Shown here in pieces: positions 2,743-55,608 of a DNA stretch of 64,000 nt. The notes beneath the pieces are model-generated. The model made no database searches and was not told the DNA's origin. It saw only the letters and a list, made by a program, of their open reading frames with translations. Positions within the stretch are counted from its first letter, which is position 1; each line of letters opens with the position of its first letter. This DNA is from Sipunculus nudus (taxonomy: Eukaryota; Annelida; Sipuncula; Golfingiida; Sipunculidae). Location of the stretch: positions 22,730,058 through 22,794,057 of the forward strand of contig CM049310.1 in assembly GCA_026874595.1 (NCBI GenBank), read 5' to 3'. Position numbers and translations under genes: made by a program.

Positions 2743-5373
2743 CTTTCTTGCCATGCAGCTTTTTGTTGATGAAGTCAAACACAGATTTAGGGGTCTCTTT
2801 TTTATAACTGAACTCTTGTTTCTGCTCTTGTTTCTTCTTGCGTTTATCTGTCTTTTTCATGACATCATACAGGTCTTGATCTCCCGCCAATTCTTTCAGC
2901 TCCATTATCTTGTCAAGTGACTTCCCTGAAACATGAATGACCAATTTGTTCAATATTATTAAGCTGAATGGGGAACTGTCTCATCACTAAAGTTTTAGCT
3001 GATGTAAATTTTGATAACATGCAATAATCAAAAATGTTTTACTTTAGTATTGACCAGTACTACCTAATTTTTTAAAAATAACTCATCACTGGAAACCAGT
3101 CCTCCTAATGTCTCCATCTAAATGCAGACTGTGGGCACACACATTTATTTAAAATGCAGACCTCAGCTCAGCCTTTTTATTATTTTTAGTACCATCACCA
3201 GGTGGCAGCACTCACCTTGGGGTAGCAGCTGGATTGGAACAGGTTCTGCACGACCTTTGCTTTCTTTTCCAAGACCTTGACCCATGATATAACCCATCTT
3301 GGCCATCAGTCGGGAACCGATACCCTTAAACAAAGGGATAAGCAGGTCAATCAACATGTACATACTATCATTCACTGTTAAATTAAATTTAATAAAAATA
3401 AAAAAATAAAAATCAGATAATATTTAGGAAAGCTATCGCATGGAAACAAAAACCTGACAGACAGACAGACAAACCCAAATCAATGTCCCCTGCATCCGCC
3501 TAGCGGGGGACAAAAATTGTATGACTTTTTATCTCATTATATGTTTCACTGACAAAGGTAGCATGCAACCAAGGAACAAGCTTACCACAGCAGAAACTGA
3601 CCAGGTCAAGTCATTTTAAAGTTATACAGAATTGTCATTTGCATGGTACATACATGTGGATCTTGCAATAAACTTGATTAAAACTGCCATTGAACCATGC
3701 CCTGAGGTAATTTACAAAATCAGGCAAATAAGCATATAAATGCATAACACTTATTACATGGTCATAATGCTACTTTATCACTATATATATGCAATGGACA
3801 AGCATTTTGCAAGAAAAGCCAAAATTTCAGCTATTGAAAATCAGTATATTGAATCTACAAACAGAAAATGGCAGAAGAAAAAATCTTGAAATCAATGGTT
3901 TGCACTCCGGTAGACCTAATTTAGGCCACTCACAAACATTTTTTTACCAAAATATGGATGCAGAAATAAAATTATCAACCCCTAAAAGCCTGACTCCCTA
4001 TGTGAGGACGCTTAGTGAAGAGCAACAGGAGCAGTCCAATCATCAATGTATACCTGAGGACACTGGCTTAGATTTAACAGCTCCCCTAGGAATTGAGATC
4101 GGCCTAATGAATTTAACAGGTATATGAGTAGGAAAAACAAGGAAACAATGTGTAATGCTAAATGACAAAGGACAAATATTACTTTTTTACACTTTTGTTT
4201 ACCTTTGTATGTGTTTCCCACTGGCCTAGTTTATCTGTTGTCTGATTGGGTCGCCATAGATACACAGGTAGCTGGTCTTCCTCATCCTCTGACTCTGAGC
4301 GGGACACAGCCTCTGTCCTCTCCTCGTGTTCTGAATCACTTTCACTCTCAGTATCTCCATCTTCAAGACATTCAACAATTAACATTGATGATAAATGAAT
4401 ACTAAATATAAAATATTTCTGCTGTACAATGGGCTCAACTTGGATGTATGAAAGGTAACTTCTTACATAATTGTAATTGCTATGATTAACATGAGTATAG
4501 TTTATTTCATTTATACATAATAATAATAATAATAATAACTAGAATACGGGTAGTCGACAAGCGACTACGTGTATCTGCCTAAATCAGAGTGGGACGGGTG
4601 AAGTGAGGCATGGATTTAGTGCCTGTAGGTGGCGCCACCCAACACAAAATCGAGAAAGCTATCCAAGATGTATATACATGCAAACTTTTAGGCAGATAAG
4701 TCAAACCACTGCTGAGATATGAGTGATTTTATCCCACAGCAGACAAACAGAGGGATGCTGTGCAAAATTGTTTGAAGGTGGCACCACCAGTTTCGCGTAT
4801 GATAAAGAGCTATGTGAGATCTATACACATGCAAATTTTCAGTAGGGTATGTCAAACCAGTCCTGAGATATAAGCATGGATGTCTGCAGCCTGAACATGA
4901 ATATAGGTGGCGCCATTAAAATCAAGAAAGCTATCCAGGATGTATACGCATGTCAGGTGGATAAGTCCAACCACTGCAGTGATAGGAGTGACTTTATCCC
5001 AAAGCAGATGAACAGATGGACGTGTGCAAAAATGGTTGCAGGTGGCGCCACCTATGTGTCACCTTTATGTATGTTATAAAGCTATCCAAGGGCTACATTT
5101 GTGCAAAATTTTTAGCCTGATTGGTCAAACGAGTCCAAAGATATGTGGGTTTATGTGTCAAAACAGAAGCACAGATGAACACACTGAAACAGGAAAGGTC
5201 AGAGGTCAACGCAAAATATTTTGGCATCAGTTAACATGTGACCCGATAATTGTGTAAAGTTTCGGAAAAATATGTCCAGTGGTCTCAGGGTTCTATTGTG
5301 GAAACGAACGCAGTGGTGGCAGAACCTGGTGAAAAACATAGTATCTGCAAAACTTTGTTTTTGCGGATACAGT

Positions 5374-5411
<38 letters not shown>

Positions 5412-8400
5412 GTGACCCATGGGTCATGGTGCTCAGCCGACTGACATGTTTACAATATGTCCTTGCACAGGCAACTAAATGAGATAAGTAGGTGGCATCA
5501 TCGTTCATGCATCTTAGCTTGAACCAAATTTGATGACAATCCAACCAGCCTTTCCTTATTAATCTGGAAATTTGTATGTATTTTGCATTATTTCCTGGTT
5601 GCACAACCCAAAACTCTGAGAATATAGGTCACAGTGACCCAATTCCAGGTTTCTGCAGAGAATTTTTGAGGAACTCTCAGGATGGCAAGTTAGAAGATTC
5701 TGGGTACGATGGTTAAGATTTGTGCCTTACTTTGGTATCAAATTTTCGATTATACTGGGGGATGCTTATAAGCCCCATAGCTAAGAGAATAGGGGTAACA
5801 GAGACCTAATTTCAGGTTTCCAAGGAGATGTTTCATAGACCTCCCTGGATGCCAAGTTAGAAGTTTTTGGGTCTAATGGTTATGATTTGTGCCCTGTTAA
5901 TGGATGAGTGAATCTTTAAAAGTCTCAAAAATAAAGGAAAAAAATTGCTTAAAATTCTAACAAGGCCTACAGGCCTAATGCGAACCTGTGCAATGAGATT
6001 ACACCAAGTATAATGCTTCAATGCTGGACCATTACTTTTCAAGAACATGTGTAACATGTATATGAACAATGCAAGTACTAAACACTTAGAACAAGAAACA
6101 ATTAAACAAACATCACTGCTGCAATTCTGGCATGGGTGCACACAACACAAAAACTAGAATATGGGTAGTCAACAAGGAACTGTGTATCCGCCAAAATCAG
6201 AGTGGAATGGGTGAAGTGAGGCATGGATTGAGTGGCAAGGGGAAATAGAGTGAGGTGTGTTGCACAATAGCCTGGATGTCTGCAGCCGAAATGTGTAAGT
6301 AGGTTGCGCCACCTACCACAAAATCAAGAAAGCTGTCCAAGTTGTATACATATGCAAAATTTTAGGCAGATAAGTCAAACCTCTACTGAGATATGAGTGA
6401 TTTTAGCCCATGGCAGACAAACAAAAGGACTTGTGCAAAAAAAATGGCAGGTGGCGCCACCAATTTGGTGTATGATTACGAGCTATGTGAGATCAATACA
6501 CATGCAAAATTTCAGGGGGATATTTCAAACCAGTCCTTATATATATGCCTGAATGTCTGCAGCGTATACATAAATATAGGTGGCGCCACCTGCCACAAAA
6601 TCGAGAAAGCTATCAAAGATGTATAAACATGCAAAAAAACCTGTGCAAAAATGATTGCAGGTGGCGCTACCAGTTTTGCGTATGATAAAGAGCTATGTGA
6701 GATCTATAAACATGCAAAATTTTGGCCCAACTGGTCAACGGTTCCCGAGATATGAGCTTGGATGTCTGCAGCTTAAATGTGAATGTAGGTGGCGCCACCT
6801 GTCATAAAATCAAGGAAGCTGTCCAGGATTTATACACATGCAAAATTTCAGGTGGATGAGTCCAACCAATGCAGAGATATGAGTGTTTTCATGCCAAGGC
6901 AGATGAACAGACAGACGCTGTGCAAAAATGGTTGCAGGTGGCGCCACCATTTTTAGTGTATGTTATAAAGCTTTCCAAGGGCTACTTTTGTGCAAAATCT
7001 TTAGCCTTATCAGTCAAACGGTTCCCGAGATATGTGGGTTTATGTGTGGAAACAAACGCACAAATGGACGATGGGCAGACAAGAAAGGTCAGAGGACAAC
7101 CAAAAATGAGGGCGCAGCAGTTCACATGTGACTGATCATAATTCTGAATTTTAAAAAATCTGCCCAGTGGTTATGGAGGAGTTCTCCGGAAACCTATGCG
7201 GTGATGGTGGCAGCGTCTGGGTCCGACTGAAAACATAGTATCTGCAAAACTCTGTTTTGGCGGATACAATGATTGTAGCTGGCACCACCAGTCTTATATA
7301 CAACGAAGAGATATATACATATGCCCAATGTCAGACTGATATGTCAAACCCCTCCTGTAAAATAAAAGCAGGGACATACACTGTGCAAAAATTATTGTGG
7401 GTGGCGCCACCAGTCTGGTAAACTATAAAGCTATCCGATATGTATAAATATGCCCAATTTTAGGTTGATGTATCAAATTCCTCTGTAGAAATAAGCAGGC
7501 GCATACACTGCAAAAGTCAATGTAGGTGGCACCACCTGTCTTGTAAATGACGCATAGACAGGTCAAAATATCAGTCCAATACATCAAACTTCCCCAGAGT
7601 TTGATGCACTGGGCTGACAAGGCTAAGGTGAGTAAAGCAGTTGCCCCCAAGTGACCTGTGACAAATTGCTGCCTCAAGCTACTGCACTGAGTGAACTCTT
7701 GACCTGCACCTGGCTAAACTGAGTGAACTTATGACCTGTACCTGGCTGCACTGAGTGAACTCTTGATTTGTTGCATAATCTGACACAGTTAGCAGTCTGC
7801 CAAAGTTATAAATAGATTCAGGCTGAACTTTGGTGCCAAATATGATGCAGTGAGCAGTCTGCCAAAACTATAAATAGAATGTAGCTACTGCACTGAGTGA
7901 ACTCTTGACCTATACCTGGCTGCACTTCTTCCAATCCTGGCACTGTGCCAAAACTATTTATAGAGCTGACATCATCTTGAATAATGGCCAACATCAAGGC
8001 CCTGGCAATCTGCAAATGGTATACCAAGTGCTGCCATCTGTACACAAAAGTGGTCCCTACTTGAAATAACTTTGAAATTTATTTTCCCAATACAAAATGC
8101 TTTTCAGCTGACTTTTTTTATAAAAAAAAAGAATTCAGGAATATATGTAAAATTATTATGGATGCATACTGAATGCAAAATTAAAATACAGATATATCTC
8201 ATTGATGGCAAATTCTTGAATTAAGTTGAGTAGGGATACCAATAATTTATAATCCACTAGTTGTCTTTATATAGCCACAGAGAGCTGAATATCCATAACA
8301 TTGCCTGGTATGATGAATAACTTAAATCATAAATCTAAATTTTTTAAAAGCTTTTAAAAAAACTTTCTTGTCAATATTAACCAAAGATAACCTGAAATCT

Positions 8401-11400
8401 AAATGTCTAGTGGCATGATGTAATAGATGCTGATAAACTGGTGCCAGGCTAGATGTAACAGCATCACACAGCTAACATATATGGTAAAATGACTCAATTC
8501 AATCTCCATAATTCAGCCAAAAATCATTCATGTGGAACCATTAATGACAATTATTATAAGCATTATTGTAGGGATTATTCTTGTAAAATATTTAACAAAC
8601 TGGCTTCAGTGGCATCAGTCAAAAAACATTTCCCAGGTTTATAACTCATATAGGAAGATAAAGCAAACTGACTAAGTTCAGCTTCCTGTAACTCAGCCAA
8701 AAAGCACTGAACCAAAACCATTTGAACAAACTTGAATTATCAACATCTAAGGATAATTAATGTGCGAGGTTTAAGAATTTGGCCCAGTGGTTTTTGAGAA
8801 GAAGATCTTTGTAGCCACTTAGCTAAAATGGGCTGTTATGGCATATGACTAAATTCAGCTTCCCATAACTTAGCCAAAAGTCACTGAAAAGAGACCATTT
8901 GAACAAACTTCAGAAAGCACAACCCTAGGATCATTTCTGTGCAATATTAAACATTGTGGCCATATGGTTTTAGAGAAGAAGTTTTTTGTAGCCCTCAGTG
9001 TGATACAGGCACTGATGACCCCGTACTAAAAAGGCCGATGCAGGTGGCGCCACCAATACCTCAATTTCAGATATGACCTATGTGACCAACATTGGCATAA
9101 AATTTGGTGATGATAGCTCCAGCCGTTTCTGAGGTTTAAATTTTGATATGCTTTTTTGCACAGTTAACAAAGTTCAGCCTCCTGTAACTCGGCCAAAAAT
9201 CTCCGAACTGGAACCATTCGAACAAACTTGAGAAAGATTGTTCCAGGGATCATTTCTGTGAAATATTGGACAATTTGGTTGGACAGTTTCGAAGAAGAAG
9301 ATTTTTAAAGCTTTTTTAGCTTTTTCCCTATAAAATCTAAGAAAATGCAGTTAGAAAAAAAATAAACAAAATCTGATATAGTTTTTTGAATGAATGATTA
9401 TTTGCAAATAATTTGGTGATGCTAGCTCCTGCCATTTTTGAGATAGCTATGGTTACGTACAGACGAAGCACGACGTACGACGCACTACGCACGACACACG
9501 ACGCACGACGACGCACCATCGCATAAGCTCACAGGTTGGCTAAAAAATCCAGGTGGCACCACCTGTCTGTAAGAACTGATGAAACACTTGATGATGAATA
9601 TGCATGCAAAGAATCATGGCAATCAATGCACTAGTTGTTTAGATACTTGAGCTTTTGTATCAAATTTTCCATTATTCTAGGGGTACTTCAGAGCCCCATA
9701 GCTTGAAGAATATGGGTAACAGAGATCTAATTCTAGGTTTCCAAGGAGATTTTTCATGGACCACTCTGGATGTCAAGTTAGAAGATTCCAGGTCCAGTGG
9801 TTACAATTTGTGCCCTATTAACGTACACACAGAGGGACAGATGGACAGACTGACAGCTAGACAGACCGACGGACAAAGAGTGATTGCTATAGCTCAGATG
9901 ACTTTCAGTCAGCTGAGCTAATAATACATAGTATTATTCTCTGATAGACAGCTCACAGCTCAATTCACACACACACATTTTCATAGAAACCTACTCTTTT
10001 TGCCTCTTTCTAAGCCCACTTTCTTTCTCACCTCCTTCATGTTTATCCATTGTAACTGACTTCACAAAACAAATGATACTAAAAGCTTGTCAAAAGAGAT
10101 ACAGTTTTAAATTGGTGTTAAAAGATGTAAGAGTCAGATATTTTCTAAGAGTAGAAGGGAGCAAATTCAAGACGTTTGGGGCTAAGAAAAGGAAGAAACA
10201 CTCAATCACTATCATATTACACTTAGGTAGTTTAAGGAGATTTCTGCCAGCTGAATGCAACATATGCAAAGGCCAATAGGTTATCAATTGTTCAGACAAG
10301 TATGATGGAAGTGAGCCATCCAAATGGGGATAAACAAAAACAGCAATTTTGTATTGTCTGCAGTACTTGACAAGAAGCCAATGGAGCTGACTGAGCAGCA
10401 GTGTGATATGGTCAGTCTTACGCTTCTTAAGAATGAGTGTTATTCTGAACCATCTGCAGCCATGAGACTTGCTCTGCAGGTAACCCAGCAAGAACTGAAA
10501 TACCGTAATCCAGGCAAGATATTACTGTGGCACAATAAGCTGACAGCACACATTAACAGAAAGGAAATGCTAGATGGAAGCTATATGGTGGAGCTCAAGA
10601 AAGGCTGCACAACATATGTCACTAATATTGTCATGCATTGAAAGATTCTGATCAATCTTAGTACTGAGATACATTACAAAGGGCTTCTCTGACAGTAACT
10701 TGGTTAAGAAGGATTATCTTTTCCCTCAGACTCTTTGTCGACATTGCCTCTGTCTTCTGTGACACAATGTCAGTGATCATCAGCATTGCTTCTGTGGGCT
10801 CTGTGTTGTCACATACGTGGTATTCCTCCACAGTCACTATCGTCAGTGCTAGAGAGCACCTTGATTAATTTCTAAACCTTGGTGTCCACATCTGCCTCGT
10901 CTGGTGTGTTTTATGCGAGTTCATCAGAAATATCCCTGTACACTGTCCGCAGTTTGCAATGGCTGTTTGTTTCACTTCCTTCGATGCTTCCCTTATAAAG
11001 TAGATGGCATCTTTCACATTATTGCCTTTTGCATCTAAATCCCTCCAATGTCCAAACATGTCACATTGTTTGATTCCTCAAACAGGTTTAAAAAACTAAA
11101 CCTAACCCTACATAGTCCCCAAATTGAGAGGTGTTTCCCAACTAAATGATGCAAAATGACTGAATAAGTGGGTCCAGCGTACGGTTAGAACTCAGAACAA
11201 TAAATGCATCTCTCGATTTCATGCGTACTTGATCCATGTGTGATGTTAATGGACCCATAGTTTAACATCAATGGAAAGTAAACAGGGTGAAATGTGGAGT
11301 CAGAAAATATGCTGACATGCTTATTTGTGTCATGGAATGTCATGTTGGAATCAAAATCCAAGGCTGTCAGTTTGTCAAGGCTAATTTCTGTGGGTTCTGT

Positions 11401-33300: not shown

Positions 33301-36300
33301 AGGAAAAACTAGAATACGGGTAGTCGACAAGCGACTACTTGTATCCGCCTAAATCAGAGTGGAACGGGTGAAGTGTTGCATATTAGCATTGGATGTCTGC
33401 AGCCAAATTGTGTATGTAGGTTGCGCTACCTACCAAAAAATCCAGAAAGCCGTCCAAGTTGTATACATATGCAAAATTTAAGGCAGATAAGTCAAACCAC
33501 TACATGTATATGAGTGATTTTTGCCCTTGGCAGACAAACAGATGGATGCTGTGCAAAAAAGGGCTGCAGGTGGCGCCACCAGTTTAGCGTATGATAAAGA
33601 GCTATGTGAGAACTATACACATGCAAATTTTGCCCCAATTGGTCAAACGGTTCCCAAGATATGAGCTTGGATATCTGCTGCATAATCTAGAATGCAGGTG
33701 GCGCCACCTGTCATAAAATCAAGAGAGCTGTCGGGGATGTATAAACTTGCAAAATTTTAGGCAGATATGTCAAACCACTGCCGAGATATGAGTGATTTTA
33801 TCCCATGGCAGACAAACAGACAGGAGCTGTGCAAACATGGCTGCAGGTGGCGCCACCAGTTTTGCGTATGATAAAGAGCTATGTGATATGTATACACATG
33901 CAAAATTTTGGCTCAATCGGTCAAACAGTTCCCTAGATATGAGCTTGGATGTCTGCAGCGTAAACTTGATTGTAGGTGGCGCCACCTGTCATAAAATCAG
34001 AAAAGCTATCCAGGATGTATAAGCATGCCGAATTTCAGGTGAATTAGTCAAACCACTGCAGAGATATGAGTGATTTTAACCCAAGGCAGACGAACAGATG
34101 GACACTGTGAAAACATGGTTGAGGGTGGCGCCACCATTTTTTGTGTATGTTATAAAGCTCTCCAAGGGCTACATTTGTGCAAAAAAATTTTCCTGATCGG
34201 TCAAACGGTTCCTGAGATATGAGCTTGGATGTCTGCAGCGTAAACGTGAATGTAGGTGGCGCCACCTGTCATAAAATCAGAAAAGCTATCCAGGATGTAT
34301 ACGCATGCCAAATTTCAGGTGAATTAGTCAAGTCACTGCAGAGATATGAGTGATTTTAACCCAAGGCAGATAAACAGATGGACACTGTGCAAACATGGTT
34401 GCAGGTAGCGCCACCATTTTTGGTGTATGTTATAAAGCTCTCCAAGGGTTACATTTGTGCAAAAGAATTTTCCTGATCGGTCGAACGGTTCCAGAGATCT
34501 GAGCTTGGATGTCTGCAGCGTAAACGTGAATGTAGGTGGCGCCACCTGTCATAAAATCAGAAAAGCTATCCAGGATGTATACGCATGCCAAATTTCAGGT
34601 GAATTAGTCAAGTCACTGCAGAGATATGAGTGATTTTAACCCAAGGCAGACGAACAGATGGACACTGTGCAAACATGGTTGCAGGTGGCGCCACCATTTA
34701 TGGTGTATGTTATAAAGCTCTTCAAGGGCTACATTTGTGCAAAAGAATTTTCCTGATCGGTCAAACGGTTCCAGAGATATGAGCTTGGATGTCTGCAGCG
34801 TAAACGTGAATGTAGGTGGCGCCACCTGTCATAAAATCAGAAAAGCTATCCAGGATGTTTACGCATGCCCAATTTCAGGTGCATTAGTCAAGTCACTGCA
34901 GAGATATGAGTGATTTTAACCCAAGGCAGACGAACAGATGGACACTGTGCAAACATCGTTGCAGGTGGCGCCACCATTTTTGGTGTATGTTATAAAGCTC
35001 TCCGAGGGCTACATTTGTGCAAAAAAATTTTCCTGATCGGTCAAACGGTTCCCGAGATATGTGGGTTTATGTGTGGAAACAGACGCACAAACGGACGCAG
35101 AGCGCAGAGGAAAGGTCAGAGGTCAAAACAAAATCGGGGCGCAGCAGTTCACATGTGACCCGAACATAATCCCGGGTTTCGGAAAATTCCGCCCAGCGGT
35201 TACGGAGGAGTTCTCCGGACACCTACGCGGCGGCGGCGGCAGCGGCGGCGGCGGCGACAGCTGAAAACATAGTATCCGCAAAACTCTGTTTTGGCGGATA
35301 CAATTATGATACGACCCATTTTCATTTTTGAAAATAGCTTTAATACGCTGGCAAAAGAAAAGATACTGTAATTGCATTATAATTTAAAAGAAAACAAAAG
35401 CGACAATCATTACTGGTGCATGCCTTAATTGGTGAAAGTAACTTTGGTTGCTGAAAGGGAGAAGTAATTAAGAACTACTTCATATAAATGCGAAAACACA
35501 GGATGCCATTATTACTATATGAACAAAACCCTGGATACATAACATTCAAAAAGCTAAAGGACTCCGAGTCCACGCCTATGAGTTTAAAGCTTGAAATTAA
35601 TATACCTCCAAACACGTAGAGGATTTAGGTAAACTTTTTGAAGTCATTTTTCAGGCAGGGTTTATTTATACAAGTTCAGATTATGATACCAAAATATTAT
35701 CTATTAGAGAACTTTTTATATCATTATGACATAATTTAGCTTTGCTTTACTGGACGAGTGATACCAACAAGTGAACATTCTGATCTGAACCCATGGACTA
35801 CATGCATTAAGATTAGTTGTGAGAGCAGAGCACTTCATTACAAGTATATGTTTAAACTTGTTTCCCTAGCAAAGCGTGTGGATCATGTCGATGCTGAATT
35901 TTCCGTCCTCCCTGCCAAAGACAAGGCCAACAGAAGTAAAATGGTATTTAATATTTCTTGTTTCAATTTTAATTATTTACATAATAATAGCAATTGTCGT
36001 GTTAAGCTTTTTATCAAGGTAACTAGTAAACGTCGGTATAGTCACTAGTGTCTCAAAGCATTTTAGAACTGAATTCATAAAAGAAAAATCGAGTTAATTT
36101 TCCTTTATAACAGACAGTGACTATGCTTTGAGCAAACATTTGACCATTTAACAAAATATATATATGTTGTAATTTTGTGTTGACTTGAAACCTTGATATG
36201 CAAATGTCATGATAATTAGAGCAATTCTGTTACTGCATGCATTACACGAGGTCACTGCGTGTGTCTCATAATGTGTACAGACAGAGACGCTGAGAAATAT

Positions 36301-37422
36301 AGAAATTCCATCATTAAAGATGCTGTGACTATCGAGATAAATATTGTTTGCATCGAATCATGTATGTACGTTTTTCCAACCGATAGGCAATTTTATTTCT
36401 GTATTTTGTTATCAAAATCGCATGGAAATTCATTCCAGGTGCTGTTGGACATACAACGCCTAAGGAAGGAAAGGATACAAAAAGCGTGTTACCATCACCT
36501 TAACGAGTATAACTATGGGAGGATACCAGGAAAACCCTGGTATGCAAGACTTTCAGTGGTGCCAGAACTGAAACTCGTCTATTGTGATGTGCACAAGGTT
36601 GGGTCAACGTATTGGAGAAATCTGGAAGAGCGCTATAAAGTCGTTCAACTTGACAGCTTTGATCATTCGCAGAGAGAGAAAATAATGAAAAATTTTACAA
36701 AGGTCATGTTTGTTCGGCACCCGTTTCAGCGCCTTATTTCAGCTTATAACGACCGCATAGTCTCAATGATACCAAATTTCGTGAAAATATATGGTCATAA
36801 ATTAAGCAAGTTTTACCCAGAAGGAAAACGGAATGCGTGTTTCGCTGATGTAGACTTTGAAACATTTAGCAAGTTCCTCATTGCAATGGCTGGACACAGG
36901 AAGTATAATTGTCACTGGGTTCCCTATCACACCAGATGTCGCCCCTGTCATGTCAAATATGACGTCATCGGAACACTGGAAACTTTCAAAGAAGATATGA
37001 CACTGGTTGACAGCCTCGTCATATTTCCGGAAACAGATAGAGAAACCAGAAAAGACTTAAAAGTGTCATCTAACTGTCGACCTCTGTCACCAAAACTTAC
37101 CAAGTATGCAGCGAATTGTAATAACATTACTAACATACTGCGAGGAAAAATGGAAGGCTTACAAGGAAAAGGCTATTTGGTTCCCAATCAATCGGTCCCA
37201 CTGACGATAAAAAATAAACCGCAGTGGGCCGACCTTTGTCAGAAATACATCGTTGAACCAATGGAAACACAACGTGGTAAACTTCTTGTGAGAGAACGCA
37301 AAAGGAATTTTACAAAAAATGTTTATACATCACTTCCTAATGAACTGTTTCAGAAGCTGATACAAATCTACGGACTGGATTTCAAAATGTTCGGTTACGA
37401 CCCTGAGGCCATACTTAGGTAG
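27395..37422 (+). CDS. Carbohydrate sulfotransferase (Sulfotransfer_2 family), type II membrane protein
   Basis: Three coding exons: 27395-27485, 35870-35943, 36439-37422. Phases fit (1, then 0) with GT/AG ends, giving 382 aa. A short cytoplasmic tail and a signal anchor (about residues 7-24) target it to the Golgi, followed by a brief stem. The catalytic domain has the 5'-phosphosulfate loop CDVHKVGSTYWRNL (104-117; K108). The 3'-phosphate site is FVRHPFQRLISAY (146-158; R148, S156), and HWVPYHTRCRPC and the late YGLDFKMFGYDP follow. This is the CHST8-14/HNK-1 sulfotransferase fold, which moves sulfate from PAPS to a sugar of a glycan or glycosaminoglycan. The acceptor sugar cannot be told. 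The family usually has A/CT or ACT where this protein has GST in the first loop. AATAAA lies at 37484-37489. Exon 1 was recognised only from its anchor sequence and matching phase, so it is less certain than exon 3. Confidence 0.87.
28785..28799 (+). promoter_or_regulatory. CTCF-type insulator motif
   Basis: CCACCAGGGGGCGCT fits the vertebrate CTCF core consensus CCASYAGRKGGCRS at every position. It sits 1.3 kb inside intron 1 of the sulfotransferase gene in AT-rich DNA. CTCF and its zinc-finger specificity are conserved across bilaterians. Binding in this organism is an inference. Confidence 0.45.
32163..32658. mobile_element. 496 bp MITE flanked by TTAA
   Basis: Inverted ends AGGGACCCAATCACC and (right end read inversely) AGGGACATAATCAGG are flanked on both sides by TTAA (32159-32162, 32659-32662). 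A TTAA duplication is typical of piggyBac-type elements. The terminal AGGGAC is not a classic piggyBac CCC start, so the superfamily is left open. The interior is GC-richer than the intron around it, with no credible ORF. Confidence 0.65.
33309..35303 (-). mobile_element. Helitron-like element, copy C (longest, ordered tandem array)
   Basis: Shares both ends with copies A and B: CTAG at 33309-33312 with the GTAGTCG/CGACTAC hairpin, and GTATCCGC...GCGGATACAA ending at 35303; host A and T flank it as before. Between the ends, GGTGGCGCCACC (one unit GGTAGCGCCACC) recurs at 33569, 33697, 33846, 33975, 34124, 34255, 34404, 34535, 34684, 34815 and 34964. The spacing alternates 128-131 and 149 bp, a 280 bp higher-order unit. 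A short GC-rich CGGCGG run (35228-35256) precedes the last hairpin. No transposase or helicase is encoded, so it is non-autonomous. Confidence 0.78.
35304..35869. other. Sulfotransferase intron 1, right part
   Basis: AT-rich sequence between the Helitron-like element and exon 2. A plus-strand reading frame opens at 35758 and runs through exon 2, but the intron acceptor TTTCCCTAG at 35861-35869 shows where coding begins. Nothing else is seen. Confidence 0.6.
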
Positions 37423-41117: not shown

Positions 41118-42654
41118 GTAAGGTTCTTTGGGAATTTTGGCCGCTTTGTAAACAGTAACATTGTTTATGTACATTTTATGCCACTTTGTGTCAGATACAC
41201 ATATCGGTAACCTTTAGATCAATTACTGAATCAGTTGTCATTCTGGTCACGACAGGTACAGCCTACAGGTATAACCAGACCGGGTGTCTTCTCTTTGCAG
41301 TCACTCTCGAATCTCGTGACTTTTAATAATATAGAGTTATTGATAGAGTACATATAGAATAACCCACGCACTTTTCTGAAATTTTGAAGCTATTCTAGAC
41401 AGAAAGTGATTCTTTTCGTCTTAATCTCCTTGCCACTTGCCTATTGCCAATTCAGAGTCTGCAGACTGCACCACAGTCCACAGTTACCAGAAATCACAGT
41501 CATTCGAATCCCTATCTTAGGGAATGGGGGGGGGGGGGGGGAAGAAACAGAACATATTACTCCTCTGTAGTCAAACATGCTATCTCTTTACAAAGTTACT
41601 ACATGAAGCACATCTATATATTCATTTAGTGCACAGTATGTCCATTTCTTTAAAACGTAACCACAATTGACACAAATAGGGATTTAAGTGACTGCATAAA
41701 TTGTACAATTTCTCATCGCTTCTTTCCCCCTCCCCCCCCCCCCAAAAAAAAACACCACAGTCACCAGTGTTTTGGGTACCTTACTCTTTATAAATAATAG
41801 GTCATTACACTTCACACTTTGTTCCCGCTTTATCAACTTATAATGACATGAAGACTTTCATTGTAGCTGTGTAACTGTTGCCAGGAAGACACATAACAGC
41901 CAGCGCCCAAACGAGTACTCAGAGCCAATATTATTACATTTCATTTTGACTGACAGCTGACTGGCTACCTGCATGCACAGGGCCCTGTGCCAATGGGGTG
42001 TCAGGATTTTTCTTTGTGAGCCTGTGGCCTATGTAAGCAGGATCAAAATGGAAGTGTAATGATCTATTATTTGATAAGACTAAAAGAGTATAGGCACCTG
42101 GGACAAATCAACACAAAACACTCCCAAGATTAAAGCAGAAAAGTTACATAACCAACTCAATAAATAATCATTTGTTGAATATATATAATTATATGCAATT
42201 TTGTATCATAATTATACAAAATAAAAGTTAAACAAGCTCTTTCATGTTCAGTCAGTTTACAGGTGGACATGGCAGCCATTATGCCAGCTATGGTGGCATA
42301 AGTCGCCATCAGGCTCAGCACTAGAAAAGCTGTGTGGTCCAAAATGGACAAAATACTCTTTTGTTTACTTTCATTTCACCAAGTATAGCCAAAATGCTGC
42401 TTTGGCATTTATATTAAATTGATGATAATGTATCGATAGATACCAGTTTTTGGCTTCAAATCTGAATTTAAAGGAATGTTTCATGACCTGTATCCAAAAC
42501 ACTTGTGCCAGTTTTACAGTCTGCGACTATTAGTAATTAGTATTACATATTAGTATGAAGTATGGGAGGTATGATCATAGGGTTAAGATATTTTCAATTT
42601 TACAAAAGTAAAATTACAGCAAATTTGATGTTAATTCTATTCTTTTTCAGATCC

Positions 42655-43506
42655 ATGGCAGGGACCAAGAGCTTGCGATCTTATCTGCCTCAGACGTCAG
42701 TTGACTGGACTGCGTTTGTATTTATGGTGGTCATGGTCCACGTTATCTGTCTTTTTGAGCTTCTAGTGGTTTTAAATGAATCTCACCACAATTACAACCT
42801 GGAATACATCGGACATGTGTGCCTAGGTGTCTACTTGTACATAAATGTAATCACAAACATGGTGTTGGTGATCACAACGGATGCCACCAGTGGAAGTGTT
42901 ATTCTGCCCAGTGTCCTTAAACCAGGCTGGCGGTTCTGCAGTGTCTGCGAGGCTAATGCTCCACCGAGATCATTCCACTGTAGCTTTTGTAAGACATGCA
43001 TACTGAGACGTGATCATCATTGTGTATTTACTGGAAACTGTATTGGACATACAAATCAAAGATACTACATAGGACTAATTAGCTTCTTGTGCCTTGGGGC
43101 GTTGTACTGTGACTACCTTCACATAGAATACACCTGGGAAATTGTGGGTGGGCTGAACTTTCGTTCATTATTCACCTTGGTTTTACCATTGTTTGCCTAT
43201 GCCTTGGGATACGCTGGTGCATTCACATTCTCAGTTGCCTTTATATCATCTTTAAGTCTCATTGGTTTCCTTCTGCTGGCTGTTCTGACGTCATATCACA
43301 TAATTAACATTTTAAACGGCCAAACTGTATTTGAAAGAGCTCGTGGAATCAAAGATTACAATTATGGCTGGAAAGAAAATCTGAGACAGGTTTTTGGAGA
43401 CAGATGGATTCTCTCCTGGCTTTTACCATGGCTTTCACTCCCACTACCCAGCAACGGTATTGATTTCATGTCAAAATACAGTCAGGAAAATGTAAAGGAC
43501 ATGTGA
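42655..43506 (+). CDS. DHHC palmitoyltransferase, ZDHHC24-like
   Basis: A single coding exon of 283 aa. It transfers palmitate from CoA to cysteines of membrane-associated proteins. Two N-terminal membrane segments (about 19-40, 54-73) precede the cysteine-rich domain FCSVCEANAPPRSFHCSFCK and the catalytic D120-H121-H122-C123, followed by NCIGHTNQRYY. Further membrane segments follow (about 138-155, 165-185, 190-220). The TTxE-like element is GQTVFERARG, and the tail SLPLPSNGIDF matches the end of human ZDHHC24 (SPLPGDGITF type) closely. The start was set at the ATG five bases after a strong acceptor; the open frame that continues upstream to 42562 is intron. AATAAA candidates are at 43670-43675 and 45002-45007. 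Length matches ZDHHC24 (about 284 aa). Confidence 0.9.
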   Translation: MAGTKSLRSYLPQTSVDWTAFVFMVVMVHVICLFELLVVLNESHHNYNLEYIGHVCLGVYLYINVITNMVLVITTDATSGSVILPSVLKPGWRFCSVCEANAPPRSFHCSFCKTCILRRDHHCVFTGNCIGHTNQRYYIGLISFLCLGALYCDYLHIEYTWEIVGGLNFRSLFTLVLPLFAYALGYAGAFTFSVAFISSLSLIGFLLLAVLTSYHIINILNGQTVFERARGIKDYNYGWKENLRQVFGDRWILSWLLPWLSLPLPSNGIDFMSKYSQENVKDM

Positions 43507-47589: not shown

Positions 47590-48711
47590 AGCTTTGGTAG
47601 ACTGCCAACTGTATCAGATTAGGCAACAGGTCAAGAGTTCACTCAGTGCAGCCAGGTATGGTCAGGAGTTTACTCAGTGCAGTAGCTGCATTCTATTTAT
47701 AGCTTTGGCAGACTGCCTACTGTGTCAGATTATGCAACAGGTCAAGAGTTCACTCAGTGCAGCCAGGTACAGGTCAAAAGTTCACTCAGTCTAGCCAGGT
47801 GCAGGTCATGAGTTCACTCAGTGCAGTAGCCTGAGCAAGCAATTTATCACTGTTCACTCGGGGCAACAGCCTTTCTCACCTAAGCCTGTTCAGCCCCATG
47901 CATCAGACTCAAGGTAAGTTTGATGCATTGGCCTAATATTTTGACCTGTCTGTGTCTTTGATGGCTTTCTCGCTCACAAGATAGGTGTCGCCACCTACAA
48001 TGACTTTTGCACAGTGTGTGTCCCTGCGTTTTTCTCAGGAGGGATTTGATATATCAGTCTGAAATTGGGCATATGTCTACATCTCTGATAGCTTCGTTGT
48101 ATACAAGACTGGTGGTGCCAGCTACAACTTTTTAGTGTTGTGTGCACCCATGCCAGAATTTCAGTAGTGATGTTTGTTTGTTTCTTATTCAAAATGTTTA
48201 GTACTTGCATTGTTCATATACATGAAAAGTAATGGTCCACCATTGAAGCATTATACCTGGTGTTTTTCCCCAATGCACAGGTTCGCATTAGGCCTGTAGG
48301 CCTTGTTTGCATTTATACAGAATTTTCCACAAAATTTGTATGGGCTTGTCCAGATTTTTGGAATACAAAATCACAGGTTACAAACTGATTTAGGTAAATA
48401 TTTATTTCAAATAAATAAAAGAGTAAGACAGGAAAAATTTCACAAAATTTTATTTCATATAGTAGTACTTTAAATTAATATATTTATTGAACATTGTGAT
48501 TTATGTATAACTGAAAATTGTAAATATATACATTTGCGTTTATCATTGCTATTGTGTTCTTTTCTAGCACATGCATGTTACATCTTTTAACACAAATTAA
48601 CACTTAGTGATAGAAAGTGATGGCATACCTGTGTATATTTATGTTACTAGTGTTATTTGTACTTTGGGCCATGAGGTTTTTCTACAATAAATCTTTGATG
48701 TTGTTATTACC
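47590..48711. repeat. 1122 bp tandem duplication, copy 1
   Basis: Identical to 48712-49833 apart from about three substitutions seen by eye (near 47849, 47924 and 47988). Both copies start at AGCTTTGGTAGACTGCC and end TTGTTATTACC, and the four-base AGCT occurs at the start, junction and end. The unit includes interspersed-repeat modules, the AGGCCTGTAGGCCT terminus (48289-48302) and about 400 bp of unique AT-rich sequence. Confidence 0.95.
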
Positions 48712-49833
48712 AGCTTTGGTAGACTGCCAACTGTATCAGATTAGGCAACAGGTCAAGAGTTCACTCAGTGCAGCCAGGTATGGTCAGGAGTTTACTCAGT
48801 GCAGTAGCTGCATTCTATTTATAGCTTTGGCAGACTGCCTACTGTGTCAGATTATGCAACAGGTCAAGAGTTCACTCAGTGCAGCCAGGTACAGGTCAAA
48901 AGTTCACTCAGTCTAGCCAGGTGCAGGTCATGAGTTCACTCAGTGCAGTAGCCTGAGCAAGCAATTTATCACAGTTCACTCGGGGCAACAGCCTTTCTCA
49001 CCTAAGCCTGTTCAGCCCCATGCATCAGACTCAAGGTAAGTTTGATGTATTGGCCTAATATTTTGACCTGTCTGTGTCTTTGATGGCTTTCTCGCTCACA
49101 AGATAGGTGTCCCCACCTACAATGACTTTTGCACAGTGTGTGTCCCTGCGTTTTTCTCAGGAGGGATTTGATATATCAGTCTGAAATTGGGCATATGTCT
49201 ACATCTCTGATAGCTTCGTTGTATACAAGACTGGTGGTGCCAGCTACAACTTTTTAGTGTTGTGTGCACCCATGCCAGAATTTCAGTAGTGATGTTTGTT
49301 TGTTTCTTATTCAAAATGTTTAGTACTTGCATTGTTCATATACATGAAAAGTAATGGTCCACCATTGAAGCATTATACCTGGTGTTTTTCCCCAATGCAC
49401 AGGTTCGCATTAGGCCTGTAGGCCTTGTTTGCATTTATACAGAATTTTCCACAAAATTTGTATGGGCTTGTCCAGATTTTTGGAATACAAAATCACAGGT
49501 TACAAACTGATTTAGGTAAATATTTATTTCAAATAAATAAAAGAGTAAGACAGGAAAAATTTCACAAAATTTTATTTCATATAGTAGTACTTTAAATTAA
49601 TATATTTATTGAACATTGTGATTTATGTATAACTGAAAATTGTAAATATATACATTTGCGTTTATCATTGCTATTGTGTTCTTTTCTAGCACATGCATGT
49701 TACATCTTTTAACACAAATTAACACTTAGTGATAGAAAGTGATGGCATACCTGTGTATATTTATGTTACTAGTGTTATTTGTACTTTGGGCCATGAGGTT
49801 TTTCTACAATAAATCTTTGATGTTGTTATTACC
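48712..49833. repeat. 1122 bp tandem duplication, copy 2
   Basis: Direct neighbour of copy 1 with no spacer. It ends about 180 bp before the likely NFKBIL1 poly(A) signal (AATAAA on the minus strand, 50014-50019). Confidence 0.95.
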
Positions 49834-50515: not shown

Positions 50516-53500
50516 TCATTTTTTATACTTCTCACATATTTTGTTAATCATCTGAGAGATCTCCTTAACTCTCTCCATAACGCTCTCTCTACTATCATCG
50601 GACAGCAGACTACCATATTTCTGTACGAACTTATCCGGGTGCCAGCACACCCTCTGTTCCTTCAGAACTCGAGAAACTTCAGGATAATCATCTTGATTTA
50701 AATCACAAAGAAGTAACTCCTCTAGCTGCTCACAGCTCTGAGACCTGTCAACCGGCCATGGGATGTCATCGAATGCAAGGGAAGCATGGGCACTTCTCCT
50801 AGCCAGCTCTCTTAACCTTTGTTCGTACTGTTGTTTCAGTGACCGCAGCAAAAGGTTTCTAGTTATCTCGGCACGACGCAGGTACTCCTGGTGTTCCTGT
50901 TCCAACTTCTTATGGAAAGCTGCTCTCTCTTCATCTGTTTGTAATGAACCAGATTCCTCTGATTTCGTTTTTTTCTTGTTTCCAGGCTCATGTTTTACCT
51001 TATTTTTAAGGTTATATTCTTGACGAATACGATCTGCCCAGTCATCTATGTCTTCCGGTTCTGGGTTTCCATAGAAATCTGAACAAAATGAAAGAAATTG
51101 TAAAATAACATTTTTATACTATACTCACCAGTAAAACTGTGTATCACCACTGACTGTCTATAATTTCAAAAGATCATTCAAAGCTAAAATCGGAAGTAAA
51201 TCTGAAACCCAAATCATATTAATTATTCACATGGATTATATAATGAACTTAATAAAAATCCTTCTTCAAACATCACACAATATATTTACTATATGCCCCT
51301 CTGGTAAAAATGGTATACAATATGATAATAAACACCCAAAGACAGAAAGTAGTAACCTTCAGGTAAAATGTACAAACACTGTAAAACACTCCTACCTCAT
51401 CCCAGTGCCCTTTGTAGTAAATTAAATTACACACACAAGACTGTTCTGCAGATATTGTAAAGATGTCTATGGACACAGACAGATTTGAATTTCGATTTTC
51501 CATAGGGTTAACAACAAATTTTATGGGATTTTAATTTGTTTGTGCCAAAGGGCATAACACCCCACAAGAAATGTTTTGATATGAGACAGTTTGTGCAAGA
51601 ACTTCTCCAGAATATAATTATCAGCGCTGAAATGTATCAACATGCAGAGACATCTGGTGGCATGCTTTACACCTAAGTCTGAGTTTTCATGAGCTGCAGT
51701 GGTAACTGACCATCTTCATATTTTCCTCCCATGCTGGCGTACTCATCCTCCATCCCCTGTTGCAGGCGTTCCTCCCAGGCATCACCTGATGAGCTGCTAC
51801 AGCTGTCACCCTCTTCATCCTACAGGGAATATATATAAAGAGAGAGAGAAAGTGAATGAGGAGAGAGAGAGAGAAGAGAGAGTTTTTGGAAGTTATTATT
51901 TTAGCAAAAACCGAAGGCAGAGTGTTACTGCATGGAATTTACATAGATACATATTGGAGAGAGAGAGAGTTGTGCAACTTAGTAGAAATTTTGACCTTGG
52001 CATCTCTAACAGTCTGGTTTCTGTCTCTGTGATCCAGGCATTATTATTTTTTTATTTTATTGGTATTATTTAACATTTTTAATGGCAATCATAAGTAAAA
52101 ACTGACTATCAAGTCTAAATTAATTTTTAAAATTCCATATGACCTGCAGTACATTCTTTAACAGAATAGTTCCTTTTCAGGAAAACTTTAAATATTCTGA
52201 AAAAAGTACCACTAGGAATGTCAAATAAAAGCAAAATTAGATACACATTGTATATGTGTATTTGTTCCTACCTGATACTGCTCCTTAAGCATAGAGATAT
52301 CTCTCAGCTTTTCTATGAGATCCTTCACAGATATTCCACTATTATCACACACATTTATTCCAGATGGGTCAGCCCTCAACATGGGTTCAATCAAGTCACT
52401 CAATACTGCAAACAGCAATAAAGACAGGTTTGAGTATAAACATGTACTTAAAATTACAAATGGAAAAAGACAAAAGGCTGGAAGAGAATTCCAGACATAC
52501 AGATGTACATAAATAATGATGATAATAATTTGTTGGACAGGAGTGACATAATAATCACAAATCAGTAGTCCTGGTATGTGGAGTCTTTCTATACTCTTGA
52601 CAATAATTTCCTTAAGTCCTATTGGTTTGGTTGGATTTCAAGAATGGCCAATGTTTTCTAAATAAAGGTCTGACAACCATTGAAATTAAAAGCCATCCCA
52701 TTAGTTTGAGGTCAACTGAATCCAGCACATTACAAGACATTCTATTGTAAACAAGACATGTTGAGCAAAGAGGGATCAAAGTTTTCAAAGTATCAAGGGG
52801 GCACTATTGTTTGATTATTGCAAAGAACCAGTAATAAGTAAGCAGCTGAATTACATGTGACGCTGCTTAGAACCCCCCCCCCACCTTAGAATGTCCCTAC
52901 AATTCACATACCAATTTTATCAAGATGCTTATCAATGGCCGCTTGCAGACCCCTTATATAATTAGAATGTCCCAACAATTACATACCAAATTTATCTAGA
53001 TGCTTATCAATGGCTGCTTGCAGACCCCTCAGAATGTCCCAACAATTCACTTACCAAATTTATCAAGATGTTTATCAATAGCCACTTGCAGACCCCTTAG
53101 AATGTCCCAACAATTCAGATACCAAATTTATCAAGATTTTTAACAATAGCTGCTTGCAGACCCCTTAGAATGTCCCATCAATTCACATACCAAATTTATC
53201 AAGATGTTTATCAATAGCTGCTTGCAGACACAGGTGTGCTGGCGACCTTCCTTTTTCATCCTGAGAGAACACCTCACATCCATTCTTCATCAGAAATCTG
53301 GACACAAAAAAATTCAAGAGTGTGAATTTTCCTTGTGAAATATCATCAAACTAAATTGATTTGGTTAAATTGATTATGGATGAATCTTTACAAAACACCA
53401 TGTTAGCCTGTCAGTCAGAATAAACAGAATTATCTGAACTACTAGTAATATAAAGTAAGCTCCACTTCTCTTAGAAAAGTTAATTTTATTTTATTAAATA

Positions 53501-55608
53501 ATACATTATAATCGTAAATGCACACTTTAAATATAATCATACTTGCTATTTTTGCTGACACAGGTTAATGTATCCTTGTGATGTAAATACAGTGTATTTC
53601 AATTCTGTAAATGAAATACAAATTTTAAAAGAAATATATTTCACCTATTTAATTTTCTCCACTCATGAATCTCAGATATATTTTTTAACACTTTGATTAA
53701 AGGGCTTGTCATATCTAATGTATAATCATTAAAATCAAATGAACTTTTAATGAAATTCTGCTACACAGAGCCCATACATTAACCACTGAATACATGTTAC
53801 TGTATAATCCTGAACTCACATCATGATATGCTGGTGACCATGGTGACAAGCTCTGTGCATCAACGTCTGGCCCTTCCTCAGCCTGGCATCAAGAGGAACT
53901 CCGTACTTCCTGACGTAATACTTGAGACGATGAAGGTCTCCATCTTCTACGTGCTTCAGCAGCTTACTCACCACCTTCTTCTTCATCCTATGAATAAAAT
54001 ATGAAATCATCAATGAAGAATTTCAATATTCAACAATATCTCCTTGATCTTCAAGGCATTTTCAAATCTTGAAATTTTATGGATATTTGGAGATGACACT
54101 TCTTTTTTTCCCATTTTTTTTCAAGCTCGATCATATTTATTGTGGAGTATTGGCAAGTGTTTGCAAAAAGCAGAAAAATTTACTGTTTTAACTCGGAAAT
54201 ATTTTAAAACAAGGCCTACAGGCCTAATGCAAAGCTGTGCAATTGGATATACACCGGGTATAATGCTTCAAAGCTGGACCATTACTTTTCAAGTACATGT
54301 GTAACATGTACATGAACAATGAAAGTACTAAACATTTTGAACAAGAACCAATAACACAAACATCACTGCTAAAATACTGGCATGGGTGCCACAACACAAA
54401 AATGATTGTAGGTGGTGCCATCAGTCCTGTATACAACAAAGATTTTCTCCCATGCCTTTAGCATGTTGCGAGTAATATACGCTAGAGGGTAGGCCTTTAC
54501 ACTATCCTAGATACTGGTTATTTTTTAATGGCTAAAGTTTGCTGACAGTATTGATCAAACAACAATAGAAAAAATAGTAAGATATAATTCCCCTGTATGT
54601 ACATATATGTGCTTTCAAATTTATACATTGTACAACTGTTGTACTTTTCATCTTAAGCTTATATGAAACCTACCTCAGGAAATCAGGAAAATTTCTTGTT
54701 CCTTCAAATACAATCCTAGTCTCCGTCATACACACAATATTTGATTTTATACATTTTTTGTCTGGTACAGGATTTAGTTTTTATGTTCTCAAAATTCCTT
54801 GAAGTGATTATACATGGATACATATCTTTTGTCAAGGTTGAGTTGACAAGACACATCACCTTAAGTATATGAAGTCCTTACATGAAGAATAGGGTGTGAA
54901 TACACCTCATTTTTAGTTAATGAATAAGCTTTCATGGTAAATACAAAATTATTTGGCAGTTTCAACAAGTCTGGACCCCTAGTGCATGCTTTCAGCTAAC
55001 TGCATATTATTATGTGGCATATGTATCCATTCAATGGATACCCAGCCGCATATGAAGCTTCCAGTAAACTGGAAAACGCAAATCCTGTAAAATTAACAGT
55101 TGTGTGTATGACAAGGAGACTTGTGCATTCAGGGTCAGAAATAGTCAATGTATTTGACTGACCAAGAAATTTTGCTAAAATCCTTGCTTTAAAACCAAAA
55201 CTGTACTCACTTTGGATGTTTAGCTTCCCTGAGCCTAATCAGTTGTTCCTGAAGTCAGAACTAGCATGACCAGTGCCAGAAGCACTTCCACCTTTAAAGT
55301 TTCCAGTAATCTTCTGACATGTTTCATAAGAGGAATCCTATCAGCATAGTTGGTGGCAAGTTACATGACATGTGCAAGTACACATTTTCCATTCTTACCA
55401 TTTAAGTGTTATTTAAAAGTGAATATGGGTTTAAGAATAAATTGTTTTTTTTTTTAATCAAATTTATTACTTTTCAAATTAACCTTTGTCCCTTTCAAAG
55501 ACCAGTAAATTTCATAAATTGTATTTTCTTGGCATACATATCACAAAGAGCTGTCATTCTGTGAATGCACATTCCAATGTAACTGCACAGTTTCTTTGAA
55601 TGTTAGAA

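Follow-up and report, generated by a model that had tools for sequence, protein, structure and literature searches.

The window analysed here, that is, the whole 64-kb stretch C5:22730058-22794057, examined within a searched genome of 1.43 Gb, contains two open frames corresponding to ordinary animal-type genes, both on the plus strand, one at 36220-37422 matching Sulfotransfer_2 (3.9e-33) and one at 42559-43506 matching DHHC palmitoyltransferase (8.1e-31), as well as a 68-bp tandem repeat at 52884-53229 (four copies, 90% match). An element for which the name Hel2N is used here lies on the minus strand at 6154-7269 (1116 bp), with its 5' end at 7269 and its 3' end, CTAG, at 6154; it was delimited from empty sites, termini and copies elsewhere in the genome. 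It interrupts a longer repeat, HostR, which occupies about 5958-9547 on the minus strand, an extent common to other loci, with its 5' end near 9547 and a 3' palindrome near 5959-5990. Two further copies of Hel2N are present in the window, also on the minus strand: one of 834 bp, counting its 5' CT, located at 4539-5372 in an (AAT)n tract, and one of 1995 bp at 33309-35303 that includes six 280-bp units.

Direct reading of the filled site gives CACAACACAAAAA[CTAG...GATACAA]TGATTGTAG at 6154-7269, and its empty counterpart, CACAACACAAAAATGATTGTAG, is found near 54391, where the two flanks meet directly at 54402|54403. The latter site belongs to a piece of HostR without the element (54208-54440, minus strand), and a BLAST comparison within the window rendered 90% identity between the left flank of 6154 and 54208-54402. 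Two more such pieces lie on the plus strand at 47960-48326 and 49082-49448, the second being a duplicate of the first 1122 bp away, with slightly altered junctions at 48129 and 49251, respectively. A search for the empty junction gave 2058 candidates, among which 40 places were scored; in the 14 empty HostR copies fetched from these, the junction reads A5 followed by TG in 12 cases, with A6 in one and A4 in one. A previous reading of this DNA from its sequence only (hereafter, the sequence-only reading) had claimed exact ends for the element on the basis of the empty site in the window, and this is borne out at 54402|54403 as well as by the same junction in 12 of the 14 further copies. It had also placed the insertion between A and T with no target duplication. 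The position stands, and the insertion at 6154-7269 is exact and without evident duplication, but the exact position of the break is ambiguous by two bases because the element starts with TT and the flank after CTAG starts with TT too, and therefore a 2-bp TT duplication still fits the empty sites.

Read along the minus strand, the element starts with TTGTATCCGCCAAAACAGAGTTTTGCAGATAC and finishes with an inverted-repeat copy (TTTTGGCGGATACA), a hairpin region and then CCATATTCTAG. The 5' end (7238-7269) comprises the initial TT and a hairpin that contains the 5' copy of an asymmetric inverted repeat (TGTATCCGCCAAAA), whose 3' copy, at 6183-6196, matches in 14 of 14 bases. In the 6154 copy the two halves of this 14-bp repeat stand at unequal distances from the termini, 1 nt at the 5' side and 29 nt at the 3' side, and in the 33309 copy the repeat extends to 15 bp with one mismatch, while in the 4539 copy it stays below the threshold of the measure used for the other two. 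Since random pairs of window segments can score as high as 16, exceeding the 14 of the 6154 copy (nine of 2000 pairs reached 12 or more), weight rests on the conservation of the inverted repeat across copies and not on a single score. The 5' hairpin folds in the three window copies; a hairpin at that end, and TT or CT as its first bases, had been noted previously. The 3' end (6154-6182) consists of a hairpin region and an 11-nt tail ending in CTAG. The 7-bp stem attributed to this region is intact in the 4539 and 33309 copies but broken in 6154 itself, and what had been described as 11 nt followed by CTAG needs correction, the distance from stem to end being 11 nt with CTAG included. Each of the 13 pairs of the 5' hairpin was kept in 27 to 34 of 34 distinct entries, one pair being changed on both sides (C-G in 22, T-A in 3), and the seven pairs of the 3' stem in 25 to 40 of 40, unevenly so (outermost pair 26/40, innermost 25/40); in both cases the entries were picked by their likeness to the hairpin, which favours conservation of the pairs. 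The central part (6267-7034, minus strand) is made of satellite-like repeats with GGTGGCGCCACC motifs, in alternating units of about 149 and 130 bp that are clearest in 33309-35303, and no Rep-helicase was found between the ends of 6154-7269.

Both junctions were read in 11 separable insertions, namely the HostR site, a site in a second HINE-like host (HINE3), the 4539 and 33309 copies, L051, L061, L063, a copy located 5' of a helicase gene on C17, and L107, L108 and L110, the last three having been selected for a TT 3' flank and being uninformative on the 3' side. L064 is a duplicate of L063, and L109, L111, L040 and L042, with no 5' end shown, were left out. An A precedes the 5' dinucleotide in ten of these 11 insertions, the HINE3 site having T, and the dinucleotide itself is TT in nine, CT in 4539, GT in L107 and TC in none. 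In the whole genome, the exact 3' end GACTACCC[AG]TATTCTAG was followed by TT[ACG] at 3658 places, by T[ACG] at 126 and by [ACG] at 117, so that T comes directly after CTAG in 3784 of the 3901 ends counted, a count that omits the TTT flank, in which both composites described below fall. The exact 5' end TTGTATCCGCCAAAAC was preceded by A in 5232 of 6033 counted ends, by T in 616, and by C or G in 185; these counts leave aside CA and TTT contexts, those of the composites, and admit A, G or T one base further out for the A-count and A, C or G for the T-count. Patterns read backwards, used as controls, gave 0 matches, and once 1. Among 100 listed places with an A-preceded 5' end, the base before that A was nearly always A or T. 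The flank counts at both ends show therefore that the A|T rule holds for the family, with a target preference of WA|TT over thousands of copies. Thus, the rule that the sequence-only reading had drawn from the three window copies is real (A|T in each) and extends genome-wide, the ends are conserved far beyond those three copies, and the idea of a distinct non-autonomous family is supported, as is the lack of a Rep-helicase between the ends.

The TT that lies outside GTATCC...CTAG on both sides in most copies could suggest a cut-and-paste element with those bounds and a 2-bp TT target duplication, with which the empty sites agree equally well. Nonetheless, an inverted repeat placed asymmetrically, 1 and 29 nt from the ends, is unlike the terminal inverted repeats of such elements, and the 4539 and L107 copies show CT and GT, respectively, at the 5' side against TT at the 3' side, even if mutation could explain two cases. 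We regard this possibility as very improbable.

Canonical Helitrons (Helitron1) start with TC, end with CTRR preceded by a hairpin 10-12 nt inside, insert between A and T, and have no 5' hairpin. Hel2N resembles them in its CTAG end, which fits CTRR, in the 7-bp hairpin that ends 11 nt from the 3' end in the 4539 and 33309 copies, and in its A|T insertion without duplication (with which the TT duplication remains compatible). It could then be a canonical non-autonomous family in which the 5' hairpin and the inverted repeat are incidental, but TC starts none of the 11 separable insertions, and the copies have conserved both their inverted repeat and their 5' hairpin, which makes that assignment unlikely, if less so than a cut-and-paste origin. 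The asymmetric inverted repeat, together with the hairpin at the 5' end, leads us to consider with good confidence that the insertion at 6154-7269 is a rolling-circle transposon, non-autonomous and structurally of the Helitron2/Helentron (HINE) type. Among the features that define this type, the inverted repeat, close to the 5' end and at 20-60 nt from the 3' one, is present in 6154 and 33309 and not reached in 4539, and the 5' hairpin involves that repeat. The hairpin that lies immediately beyond the 3' copy of the repeat forms in 4539 and 33309, that of 6154 being broken. The T|T target of Helentrons and HINEs is replaced in this family by a preference for A|TT. Besides the below-threshold repeat of 4539, the Helitron1-like CTAG and A|T, the scores attained by random segment pairs, the uneven conservation of the 3' stem, the uncorrelated inner and outer divergences of the composites (see below), and the lack of an autonomous partner in the five loci partly read, count against the HINE placement. 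Hel2N appears to be best placed with Helitron2/HINE by structure, membership according to a partner protein being a separate matter. As to the Helitron hallmarks previously invoked, the superfamily, the minus strand, the exact ends and A|T are retained, but the termini are those of Helitron2/Helentron-HINE and not those of a canonical Helitron.

HINE/DINE-1 elements have been described as non-autonomous Helentrons with T-rich, T|T targets (Thomas et al. 2014, PMC4067079). As portrayed there, they share with Hel2N subterminal inverted repeats, a 5' inverted repeat nested in the subTIR, a 3' palindrome, central tandem repeats and the absence of target duplication; at least two T are reported at each side, their sharing-out between element and target being unclear, and the T on both sides of Hel2N are similarly ambiguous in ownership. 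The CTAG 3' end and the A|TT target set Hel2N apart from those T|T elements (PMC4067079). The inverted repeat, 5' hairpin and 3' stem also resemble those of Helitron2 (Bao and Jurka 2013, PMC3627910), although the Chlamydomonas examples given insert between TTTT and T/C, and Hel2N at A|TT. Cg_HINE of the Pacific oyster (PMC7492417) is likewise non-autonomous, with satellite-like arrays between terminal modules and a microsatellite near one end, and is reported to insert in other repeats and to prefer T|T; compared by description, HostR and HINE3 fit its plan especially well, while the terminal sequences of Hel2N differ from it as far as the descriptions show. FoHeli1/2 of Fusarium (PMC5148889) have asymmetric inverted repeats, double hairpins, an A/T-containing site and a comparable doubt over the first T, but are described as autonomous, fungal, and inserted at TNAT followed by T or A. 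The kind of element found here is an ordinary one, already known, and the observation of the family is sound; what is mildly unusual is that Helentron-like ends are combined with CTAG and an A|T target, as in Helitrons.

What had been called a host repeat itself resembles a mobile element. The subTIRs of HostR measure 11 bp (one mismatch in the window copy), its 3' palindrome AGGCCTGTAGGCCT precedes TTGTT, and there are an ACGACGC microsatellite at 9463-9516 and 177-bp tandem repeats at 8669-8993, which is the plan of a HINE. Its 122-125 bp repeats (7270-7547) and the 149+130 bp repeats of the element (6267-7034) both contain the GGTGGCGCCACC motif and are ca. 77% identical, as though host and element each harboured a related satellite. 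The region 47737-49452 is the product of a local tandem duplication involving part of HostR: it comprises two near-identical stretches, 1122 bp apart, in each of which the 3' end of HostR is accompanied by a 32-bp tandem repeat.

The 5' module of the element is joined to the identical HostR base in 20 of the 30 best loci and at most four bases away in four more, the HostR flank being different or missing in the remaining six. A second set of 30 loci comprised 14 in HostR, ten in HINE3 and six with other flanks, two of which were duplicates. Identical junctions in many copies might be produced by repeated site-specific insertion at the same HostR and HINE3 positions, and the inner and outer divergences are indeed uncorrelated (Mantel r -0.01, p 0.52, 22 composites), a result that speaks neither for nor against joint spread. 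The flanks of the filled copies, on the other hand, argue against such targeting. A diagnostic column of the HostR left flank reads C in 25 of 25 distinct filled copies and in none of 17 empty copies, which have A and which, having been found with the 54391 copy as the query, lean towards its relatives. Two further columns behave similarly, one with A in 24/25 filled against 0/17 empty copies and the other with A in 22/22 readable filled against 0/16 readable empty copies (eleven rows repeating a place and one non-HostR row were dropped from this comparison). These shared bases show that the composite of HostR plus element has been multiplied, and repeated targeting of one HostR site is rejected by them. 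In HINE3, a 12-bp loss is common to the six filled copies in which the right flank was read, and it is absent from 14 of 15 empty sites fetched from 40 listed, the fifteenth having another deletion. Repeated site-specific insertion is accordingly the least probable of the explanations considered, hardly to be credited.

In 14 of the 15 empty HINE3 copies, the T is preceded by six to eight A (A6 to A8), and the filled site reads A5[element]A3, so the insertion took place inside the A run, that is, at T|T on the element's strand. This is the target reported for Helentrons, and further T|T cases may perhaps be found among the 616 T-preceded ends. Given the common 12-bp loss and the HostR diagnostic bases, each composite seems to go back to one insertion that was then copied along with the host. 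The closest copies of 6154 are not independent insertions, and those at the HostR site trace to one event; they have spread mostly as a passenger inside another mobile element. The 6154 copy thus goes back to one insertion into HostR, and the composite would have multiplied most likely via the rolling-circle mobility of HostR itself. More tentatively, it is possible that Hel2N is structurally intermediate between the two types, with the inverted repeats and double hairpins of Helitron2/Helentron but the CTAG end and A|T target of Helitron1, and that its thousands of copies include those carried as cargo of two HINE-like hosts, so that different rolling-circle systems would spread one satellite-bearing element.

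At least 143 matches to Helitron_like_N exist in the genome (150 of 195 candidates were scored). Five Rep-helicase loci were partly read, on C11 and C4 (close relatives of each other), C17 and C13 (likewise), and C7. An autonomous Rep/helicase element with the same ends, the search for which had been proposed in the sequence-only reading, was not found in the parts read, where Hel2N ends occur only as the separate copy 5' of the C17 gene. The C11 frame, of 2235 codons, ends in an Exo_endo_phos domain (2.4e-14), which indicates that Helentrons are present in this genome. On the same strand, HINE3-type 3' ends follow the C17 frame at ca. 1.0 kb and the C7 frame at ca. 0.9 kb. Because only about 35 bp are shared, with no matching HINE3 5' end at these two loci, and because the window by itself already has two such 3' ends, these frames are a lead only, for a driver of HINE3 and not of Hel2N, chance being about 1% by rough estimate. 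The two ends in the window lie at 5411-5428 and 17517 (minus strand), the first abutting the (AAT)n tract that houses the 4539 copy.

As for the mobilization of Hel2N, a Rep-helicase supplied in trans might nick at the 5' hairpin, and one strand would be peeled off through the satellite-like array until the process is halted at CTAG by the hairpin and the inverted-repeat copy of the 3' end, the released strand being then joined into the target. Thanks to the empty sites, the ends of this abundant rolling-circle family are cleanly defined. They also illustrate a general pitfall, since a flank that recurs in many copies can reflect a single nested insertion that the host element has multiplied. 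The mixed termini could help in asking which terminal feature accompanies the choice of A|T or T|T targets in Helitron-like elements, and also how nested HINEs disperse satellite arrays. Joined ends of the element, with CTAG next to TTGTATCC, would support a circular intermediate if present. At L031 (about 900-1180) and L032 (about 500-800), and also at L006 and L021, the 3' CTAG directly abuts TTAGCTCAGCTGACTTTCAGTC, the 5' end of HINE3, without the 3' part of HostR; these junctions are due either to chance proximity or to the formation of a head-to-tail rolling-circle chimera.
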